The notes beneath the pieces are model-generated. The model was not told the DNA's origin, ran no database searches, and saw only the letters and a list, made by a program, of their open reading frames with translations. The translations under genes and the position numbers were made by a program. From positions 422,675 to 465,900 of the forward strand of contig MGPQ01000010.1 of assembly GCA_001797465.1 (NCBI GenBank): a stretch of DNA of 43,226 bases, written 5' to 3'. The DNA is from Deltaproteobacteria bacterium GWB2_55_19 (GTDB taxonomy: Bacteria > Desulfobacterota > GWC2-55-46). Positions 4,375 to 42,568 of this stretch are shown one piece after another; positions within the stretch are counted from its first letter, which is position 1, and every line of letters starts with the position of its first letter.

Positions 4375-4408
4375 AACGGGCGCGGAAGATTCCGCGCCCG
4401 TTTTTTTT
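4375..4408 (+). terminator. Intrinsic terminator of wecA
   Basis: A perfect 12-bp G+C-rich stem (4375-4386 with 4391-4402, loop AGAT) is followed by an unbroken run of T residues to 4408. It lies 23 bases after the wecA stop. Confidence 0.93.
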
Positions 4409-4519
4409 CAGCCAAGGTCTTTAGCGCCTGCCTGGGTTTTTTCGGCATAGGGTTCTCCCTCCGTCCTTCCCTCCCTTAAGGTCGCTTAACCTATGCCTGG
4501 GGTTTTTGAGAAACAAAAC

Positions 4520-4660
4520 GGTTTTGGTTCTGTTTTACCAATACACAGGCGCAGGGCGGATAACGCATAAGGGGGGAAGGGGCGCGCGAGCGGGTAGGGG
4601 AGGAAGGAGGCGTTAGGAGCCCCTGCGCGAAATGCGCGCTGGGCGCGCAAAAGGGCCTTT
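4520..4660 (+). repeat. Structured dispersed repeat family A, copy 1
   Basis: This copy shares extended sequence with 7321-7533 (same orientation) and 38959-39211 (inverted). Shared blocks include GGCGCAGGGCGG, GGGGCGCGCGAGCGG, GAGCCCCTGCGCGAAA and GCGCGCAAAAGGGC. It folds into an outer stem GCGCAGGGC (4549-4557) with GCCCCTGCGC (4619-4628, one bulged C), an inner stem AACGC/GCGTT (4562-4566 with 4610-4614), a purine-rich apical region full of GGA, and a following GCGCGC/GCGCGC hairpin. Open reading frames here are not conserved in sense between copies, so it is non-coding or a mobile structured element. Confidence 0.8.
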
Positions 4661-4711
4661 TTGGAAAAGCGCGTCAACAGGCGAGGTTGTCCGAGGCGCT
4701 CATATCGATTT

Positions 4712-7320: not shown

Positions 7321-7533
7321 TTTTTGTTCTGTTTCACAAACACACGGGCGCATGGCGGAGAGCGCCTCAGGGAGGAAGGGGCGAGCGAGCGGGCGGGGGT
7401 GGAAGAAAGCGCTCGGAGCCATCGCCAAAAGCGCGCGGAGCGCGCAAAAGTGCTTTGGCGAAAGGTTCGAATAGCCGATTCAGGCGCTATTTGGGTCACG
7501 AACTAAAAGGGTTCAGGTTGCAAACCTGAACCC
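7321..7533 (+). repeat. Structured dispersed repeat family A, copy 2
   Basis: This is the most diverged copy, yet it keeps the same fold through compensatory changes. The outer stem is GGCGCATGGC (7347-7356) with GCCATCGCC (7418-7426), where copies 1 and 3 have CAGGGC/GCCCCTG. The inner stem is AGCGC/GCGCT (7361-7365 with 7409-7413), where the others have AACGC/GCGTT. The second hairpin is GCGCGC-GGA-GCGCGC, extended by CGCCAAA/TTTGGCG. Like copy 3 it carries GGGTCACGAA near one end and a TTCAGGTTTGCAACCTGAA-type hairpin at the boundary. Confidence 0.78.
7504..7533 (-). terminator. Terminator of dnaB
   Basis: GGGTTCAGGTT (7509-7519) and AACCTGAACCC (7523-7533) form a perfect 11-bp stem. On the minus strand it is followed by TTTTA, eight bases past the dnaB stop. 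On the plus strand it is followed by GTCTTTTT, so it could work both ways. It forms the end of repeat copy 2. Confidence 0.7.
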
Positions 7534-27400: not shown

Positions 27401-27448
27401 GTTTACATAGTATCAAAGACCGGGTGCCATTTCAAGGAAAGGGTCCTT

Positions 27449-27815
27449 GCCGGACGGGCAAATCCGTATCGTACTGCTTTGAGTTCGGGAGCCTGGAGCA
27501 ACCCGATTTGAATCTGGCCGTACGCCGAGTACTGCCGGACGGGCAAATCCGTATCAGACTGCTTTGAGTCCGGGAGCCTGGAGCAACCCGATTTGAATCT
27601 GGCCGTACGCCGAGTACCGCCGGACGGGCAAATCCGTATCGTACTGCTTTGAGTCCGGGAGCCTGGAGCAACCCGATTTGAATCTGGCCGTACGCCGAGT
27701 ACCCTTGCCGGACGGGCAAATCCGTATCGTACTGCTTTGAGTTCGGGAGCCTGGAGCAACCCGATTTGAATCTGGCCGTACGCCGAGTACCGCCGGACTG
27801 GCAAAGTTCATATCG
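27449..27815. repeat. 85-bp tandem repeat array, four full units and a partial fifth
   Basis: Units start at GCCGGACGGGCAAATCCG at 27449, 27534, 27619, 27707 and 27792, giving spacings of 85, 85, 88 and 85. The extra three bases in unit 3 come from a CCTT junction. Units differ at a few positions (TATCGTAC or TATCAGAC; GAGTTCGG or GAGTCCGG). The fifth copy decays after about 25 bases. Each unit can fold with CAAAT/ATTTG and CGGG/CCCG arms. The period is not a multiple of three, so it does not encode a repeated protein in one frame. There are no variable spacers, so it is not CRISPR. Confidence 0.93.
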
Positions 27816-33130: not shown

Positions 33131-33272
33131 GGCTACTTCTAAAAATTGTTATTTTTCCTGATCTCTGTGTCTGGTCGGAAATAAAAATGCTCACATATTC
33201 ACATATATGCTGCGCTTTTTATTTCCGCCCTTCCTTGACCTCAGAAAAAATTCCTAATTTTTAGAGGCAGCC
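33131..33272. repeat. MITE-like inverted repeat family C, long copy
   Basis: Ends GGCTACTTCTAAAAATT and AATTTTTAGAGGCAGCC are inverted with two mismatches. The inner part holds a perfect 12-bp hairpin, CGGAAATAAAAA (33176-33187) with TTTTTATTTCCG (33216-33227). A short relative lies at 42500-42558. It encodes nothing. Confidence 0.8.
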
Positions 33273-33287
33273 TTAAATCAGCAAGGT

Positions 33288-38958: not shown

Positions 38959-39211
38959 GGGTTCAGGTTTGCAACCTGAACTTTTTAATTCGTGACCCGG
39001 TATGCGCTTGCGGGGCTAATTGAATTATTGCATAAAGCCCTTTTGCGCGCTCCGCGCACTTTCGCGCAGGGGCTCTTAACGCTTTCTTCCTCCCCCATCC
39101 GCTCGCGCGCCCCTTAGAGCGCAAGCGTCTAATCCGCCCCGGCGCGCTCGCCTCTCTCTCCCTTATGCGTTCTCCGCCCTGCGCCTTGGGTTTGTTAAAA
39201 CAAAACCAAGG
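38959..39211 (-). repeat. Structured dispersed repeat family A, copy 3 (inverted)
   Basis: Read on the minus strand it matches copy 1 closely (GGCGCAGGGCGGAGAACGCA) and has an extra stretch of about 40 bases after the inner stem's left arm. It folds alike: outer stem 39176-39184 with 39064-39073, inner stem 39167-39171 with 39078-39082. At its far end it carries GGGTCACGAA and the TTCAGGTTTGCAACCTGAA-type hairpin, as copy 2 does. Confidence 0.8.
38961..38986 (+). terminator. Terminator-like hairpin at the edge of repeat copy 3
   Basis: GTTCAGGTT and AACCTGAAC pair around TGC, followed by TTTTT on the plus strand. No plus-strand gene precedes it, so it probably belongs to the repeat. Confidence 0.5.
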
Positions 39212-42499: not shown

Positions 42500-42558
42500 G
42501 GCGCCTTTAAAAATTGTTCTTTTTCCTCAGAAAAAATTCCAAATTTTTAAAGGCAGTC
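42500..42558. repeat. MITE-like inverted repeat family C, short copy
   Basis: Ends GGCGCCTTTAAAAATTGTT and AATTTTTAAAGGCAGTC match the ends of 33131-33272, with TTTTTCC and CAGAAAAAATTCC joined directly. It lacks the central hairpin block of the long copy. It lies between alr and mlaE. Confidence 0.72.
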
Positions 42559-42568
42559 TTCGGATAAG

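Follow-up and report, generated by a model that had tools for sequence, protein, structure and literature searches.

A large, probably mobile palindromic DNA repeat dispersed through genomes of one family of uncultured Deltaproteobacteria

REP sequences, the units of the REP/BIME/REPIN systems, are short stem-loops of 20–40 nt that carry GTAG or CGTC as a terminal tag (PMC3733652, PMC3116915, PMC8266576). The enzymes that mobilize them, RAYT (TnpA-REP), recognize the GTAG tag and a mismatched hairpin (PMC8266576). For the STAXI motifs, the authors consider folded single-stranded DNA (PMC2864571). Here, we describe a repeat that shares much with these systems, is considerably longer than REP units, and has no such tag.

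The window, meaning the whole stretch of DNA that was analyzed, comprises 43,226 nt of Deltaproteobacteria bacterium GWB2_55_19 (GCA_001797465.1, contig MGPQ01000010.1, positions 422,675–465,900, forward strand). A sequence-only reading had reported three copies of a repeat sharing one fold. All three are present where it placed them, with copy 3 on the minus strand, and a repeat search of the window recovered copy 3 as an inverted repeat of each of the other two, over as much as 71 nt and with 78–91% complementarity. The stem assignments of the sequence-only reading also hold. Copies 1 and 3 have the outer stem GGCGCAGGGC/GCCCCTGCGC plus one extra C, and copy 2 has GGCGCATGGC/GCCATCGCC and a single bulge; the inner stem is AACGC/GCGTT in the former two and AGCGC/GCGCT in the latter. 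The reading missed an inverted second unit 5′ of copy 1 and a tail common to copies 2 and 3. The features are as follows.

4376–4417, plus strand: intrinsic terminator, ACGGGCGCGGAAgatTTCCGCGCCCGT followed by T8; belongs to the upstream gene and lies outside the element
4424–4500 (about), minus strand: shrunken unit of type II, inverted and head-to-head with copy 1; outer stem GGCATAGG (4444–4451) / CCTATGCC (4490–4497)
4520–4664, plus strand: copy 1, a type I unit with a short apical arm and no tail; T-rich leader, outer stem 4548–4557 / 4619–4628, purine internal loop, inner stem 4562–4566 / 4610–4614, second hairpin 4633–4649, then AAAAGGGCCTTTTT
7321–7533, plus strand: copy 2, a type I unit with tail; outer stem 7347–7356 / 7418–7426 with one bulge, inner stem 7361–7365 / 7409–7413, second hairpin 7431–7445, terminal tail hairpin 7509–7533
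38959–39211, minus strand: copy 3, a type I unit with a longer apical arm and tail; outer stem 39185–39176 / 39073–39064, inner stem 39171–39167 / 39082–39078, second hairpin 39059–39045, tail hairpin 38983–38959

The apical arm of copy 3 holds about 40 nt extra. The type II partner of copy 1 is full-length at the orthologous site in genome G002, and the terminator between the upstream gene and copy 1 is conserved in G001, G002, and G004. The window also contains four tandem copies of an 85–103 nt unit (27445–27805, 83–98% identical, spacing 85–88), which overlap a minus-strand ORF of 133 aa (27403–27804), and a shorter repeat pair of 44 nt, TTCCTTGACCTCAGAAAAAATTCC...AGAGGCAGCCTT, at 33231–33274 and 42517–42560 (86% identical).

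Side-by-side reading of the copies gave a unit of about 115–190 nt, with longer apical inserts in some. It begins with a T-rich leader ending in CAAACAC, followed by the 5′ arm of the outer stem and a conserved, G·A-rich purine internal loop (GGA or TGA, then GC and GA steps). The inner stem, AAGGGAGGAAG, a variable apical arm, and GGGGGAGGAAGAAAGCG lead to the 3′ arms, after which come a second hairpin, GCGCGC-GGA-GCGCGC or relatives, then AAAAGGCCTTTT. Many copies continue into a tail of about 75 nt, closed by the GGGTTCAGGTT/AACCTGAACCC hairpin. The conserved unit ends are CAAACAC...GGC and AAAAGGCCTTTT. The second hairpin, already noted in the sequence-only reading, is kept across the family, as is the purine internal loop, whose near-invariant columns are among the best conserved parts. 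Type II units have the outer stem GGCATGGGG/CCCCATGCC and the second hairpin AGCCCGGCAGGGC, and stand head-to-head with type I units in many places. The hairpins are predicted to be stable on both strands.

BLAST searches of the same genome (2.6 Mb in 21 contigs) returned 55 segments with copy 1 as the query and 62 with a longer copy. Thus, the three copies belong to a family and are not a chance trio. A 176-nt consensus-like query matched other copies at 90–95% identity, and a profile search identified 76 segments in at least 49 loci. A covariance-model search of the genome and its relatives, which the sequence-only reading had proposed, found further copies: our model R1, run on 30 genomes from the host's family of uncultured groundwater Deltaproteobacteria and 18 of other families in the order, detected the element in 24 of the 30, in 8 of 13 genera. 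Counts in several of these genomes were up to or near 62 among the best 62 candidates scored, and the other families gave one marginal match (E-value 6.7 × 10−6). Scanning 84,980 species representatives with a DNA pattern gave 58 stretches, nearly all in assemblies titled Deltaproteobacteria, mostly from groundwater; two had other titles (“uncultured bacterium isolate BACT1” and “bacterium isolate clean1855”). No named RNA family had been recognized in the sequence, and the Rfam 15 search of the window agreed, with no match above a gathering score. Divergent copies gave weak E-value hits on five other loci, far under the gathering scores. The element apparently represents an undescribed class of long (115–190 nt) palindromic interspersed repeat, limited to one uncultured bacterial family.

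The outer stem can change wholesale while the rest of the unit stays recognizable across genera. Its variants include GGCGCAGGGC/GCCCCTGCGC, GGCGCATGGC/GCCATGCG, GGGCATAGG/CCTATGCCC, and GGCATGGGG/CCCCATGCC, and further GTAACAGGGC/GCCCTGTTAC, GGTGCAGGGC/GCCCTGCACC, GGGCATAAGGC/GCCTTATGCCC, GAGGGTAAGGC/GCCTTACCCTC, and GGGGTATTG/CAATACCCC. We quantified covariation in a sequence-only alignment of 42 diverse copies, where 80.8% of cells were paired under the proposed structure, compared with at most 50.6% when the partner was slid. The covariation score was 0.287 against 0.111 in shuffled alignments, a value reached by none of 500 shuffles; double-change cells numbered 121 versus 44 in shuffles, and both sides varied in 12 of 21 stem pairs. 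Because the structure had been written from the same sequences being tested, we added an alignment-free arm-swap check. The 38 distinct 5′ arms scored 22.4 with their own 3′ arms, whereas permuted arms had a mean of 15.5 and a maximum of 17.8, and none of 20,000 swaps reached the own-arm score. With own arms so far above permuted ones, the palindrome is really maintained across copies. The earlier description of a dispersed structured repeat with compensatory stem changes was therefore right, and the statistical support is far stronger than three copies could provide.

Gene context was summarized from the retrieved loci using simple codon-based gene calls. None of the 76 segments lies inside a gene. 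Among 49 loci, 26 lie between convergent genes, 17 between tandem genes, and 2 between divergent genes. Since convergent and divergent gene pairs are necessarily equal in number on a circular chromosome, equal frequencies are expected, and the observed 26 to 2 is strongly skewed (P = 3 × 10−6). Between tandem genes, the element is oriented with the genes 13 times and against them 13 times. Every locus with both orientations is head-to-head (21 of 21), and such pairs consist of inverted halves with tails at both ends. The neighbors are ordinary genes, in the window those for a glycosyltransferase, PriA, DnaB, a RACo-type protein, and an MlaD-domain protein. Apart from orthologs, no protein family recurs beside the copies, and no mobile gene recurs among 599 ORFs neighboring the retrieved loci. 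A role as the terminator of neighboring genes was considered and rejected, as the gene upstream of copy 1 already has a separate one.

We compared orthologous sites, at which the genes flanking the window loci align at about 78–96% identity within the genus. At the three window loci, related species have a different unit, an inverted or shrunken one, a remnant, or no element at all. In genus g6, one locus has head-to-head pairs in G009 and G018, a remnant in G026, and no element in G024 and G029. At some loci, the composite is retained in several species with the stem subtype switched, and chimeric copies exist; together, these suggest gene conversion. Such a pattern of turnover would be given by an old repeat that is still mobile or converting, although some copies have stayed in place in several species, which agrees with slow turnover or retention as well as with mobility. 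A clean empty site with a target-site duplication was not found in the element's own genus or in genus g6, the spacers being too rearranged in both. The sequence-only reading had offered “novel RNA or mobile element,” and the second half was the better guess, given the presence, absence, and rearrangement of the element at orthologous sites, its exclusively intergenic placement, and its head-to-head pairs.

At L049 (G000:C19:119586–120504), 120 nt of the element plus the following small gene are repeated at 100% identity about 0.55 kb downstream, a recent duplication; local tandem duplication is thus a further way in which copies can spread. The copy 3 site in G004 (L149:1620–3500, G004:C260) has an insert of about 1.7 kb instead, whose two open frames look by eye like an AAA/OLD-type ATPase with a partner and might form a defense cassette. 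A different dispersed repeat of about 155 nt, CAGGTTGCTGAAAAACTC...GGGCTTTTTCAGCAGCCTG (L302:18709–18861, G009), is highly repeated in genus g6 and absent at the orthologous sites in G028, G018, and G024 (L317, L318, L319); it looks like a MITE.

We also looked, among RAYT genes and the ORFs next to copies, for an enzyme that could move the element and found none. Y1-type matches occur in 19 of the 30 family genomes. The genome of the window has one RAYT-like gene of this Y1 type (L103:1997–2530, at about 256.5 kb of G000:C10), flanked by its own GTAGGGTGCGC / GCGCACCCTAC repeats; this REPtron-like locus is different from the element. Most RAYT-type Y1 transposase genes in these genomes are similarly flanked by their own GTAG repeats. 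When 31 loci with Y1/RAYT genes were scanned with R1, the element fell within the retrieved flanks in 4 and never formed a pair flanking the gene. RAYT/REP was rejected as the mover, since the RAYT repeats differ from the element and the element is near few RAYT genes; a recurrent neighboring transposase was rejected too, as none recurs beside the copies. Neither a GTAG nor a CGTC tag is present at the conserved unit ends. The element thus behaves in the manner of REP/BIME sequences or MITEs but lacks the tag and REPtron arrangement of the former.

Covariation of this strength would ordinarily suggest RNA. In RNA helices, a change from G-C to G-U is tolerated, and the mirror change to A-C is not. 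As a control, the acceptor and T stems of the 30 best tRNA matches in the same genome contained 19 G·T and 1 A·C. Across all copies, the element had 10 G·T and 16 A·C in the outer and inner stems and 15 and 29 in the second hairpin, for sums of 25 and 45; the 42 diverse copies had 21 and 15. The difference from tRNA stems is significant for both sets (P = 1.4 × 10−6 for all copies, P = 0.005 for the 42), with P values that are indicative, as the copies are related. The second hairpin alone leans the opposite way in the 42-copy set (11 G·T versus 4 A·C). In 151 of 154 copies, the sense strand is the one predicted to fold more stably as RNA; its purine content is 65%, however, and this richness alone could cause the bias. 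A scan for sigma-70-type promoters found nothing exceeding shuffles. Both the lack of a G-U bias and the placement relative to genes argue for DNA. The “novel RNA” half of the earlier guess thus fared poorly, given the absence of G-U over A-C bias, the random orientation to genes, the lack of a promoter signal, and the strong terminator that separates the upstream gene from copy 1.

An RNA-based alternative is that many loci express small structured RNAs, for example decoys that bind CsrA via conserved GGAGG purine loops. The strong covariation would fit, as would the conservation of GGGAGG on each purine strand (47 and 57 of 73, versus 6 and 17 expected by shuffling). A CsrA gene is present in the genome of the window, and by genus csrA occurs in exactly the 8 of 8 carriers and in 0 of 5 noncarriers (30 genomes, family f1), though G016 and G017 have no CsrA hit where their congeners have one. 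In a PriA tree, however, four CsrA-lacking genera group together, weakly, and g11 falls beside a carrier genus, so this match collapses to about two evolutionary changes. Enrichment of the CsrA-like motif ANGGA is confined to the 5′ purine strand (26 versus 24 expected on the 3′ strand), and the varying stems lack the G-U excess of tRNA stems, in addition to the random orientation and missing promoters. We therefore consider small RNAs of this kind unlikely. The sequence-only reading had raised CsrA as a speculation; genus co-occurrence and GGGAGG conservation speak for it, the few evolutionary changes and one-sided ANGGA against it, and it is best treated as a suggestive, unproven lead. The stronger version, in which family-wide folded transcripts from many loci would titrate CsrA and be gained and lost with its gene, has in our judgment a very slim chance of being correct. 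If true, a mobile repeat would have turned into a distributed regulatory sponge.

REP/BIME sequences have been proposed as bidirectional 3′-end devices, and the element could similarly act between convergent genes as an mRNA stabilizer, a terminator, or a supercoiling buffer. The convergent skew, the hairpins predicted to be stable on both strands, and some T after the GGGTTCAGGTT/AACCTGAACCC tail hairpin favor this possibility. We nonetheless doubt it: a separate conserved terminator already precedes copy 1, no T-run directly follows the GC hairpins of the unit, and the element is absent from orthologous spacers in related species. It is also conceivable, if improbable, that the compensatory changes arose by mutation alone, with template switching perfecting imperfect palindromes and gene conversion between copies, in the absence of selection on folding. 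Stem variation is strand-symmetric, and the subtype switches between species and chimeric copies agree with such a process. That correction would erase the purine internal loop, yet the loop is near-invariant, and stems are replaced wholesale while the surrounding unit remains recognizable across genera.

Based on the copy number, the fold and its covariation, the intergenic placement with its preference for convergent genes, and the turnover at orthologous sites, all observed directly, the element is probably a large dispersed palindromic DNA repeat, a non-autonomous mobile sequence of REP/BIME or MITE kind. We infer that a folded single DNA strand or cruciform may be recognized when copies are made or converted, and that a host enzyme would act on the element in trans. 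Convergent spacers may simply be where insertion is tolerated. The element would add to the REP/BIME/MITE world a repeat that retains its loop through repeated replacement of the outer stem. It also carries a warning: judged by covariation alone, very strong as that is, it would have been taken for a structured RNA.

In comparison with known systems, the element resembles REP/BIME/REPIN sequences (PMC3733652, PMC3116915, PMC8266576) in its many intergenic copies, mostly in convergent or tandem spacers, its subfamilies with alternative complementary stem bases, its head-to-head dimers and heterodimers, its irregular mismatched stems, and its mosaics with other palindromes. It differs in its unit of 115–190 nt rather than 20–40 nt, in having no GTAG or CGTC tag, in not flanking RAYT genes, and in its two-hairpin architecture, purine loop, and tail. 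With MITEs such as Correia/NEMIS, ERIC, and BOX (PMC10969869), compared by description, it shares the size class, a non-coding, intergenic, and strongly folded nature, tens of copies, restriction to a lineage, and the lack of its own transposase; as differences, no target-site duplication was found at the orthologous sites compared and no parent insertion sequence among the ORFs neighboring the retrieved loci, and its inverted halves are two different unit types instead of simple terminal repeats. Finally, it differs from known RNA families in having no Rfam match at the gathering threshold in the window; like the STAXI-type candidate structured RNAs or single-stranded DNA motifs (PMC2864571), it has a conserved covarying fold in intergenic DNA.
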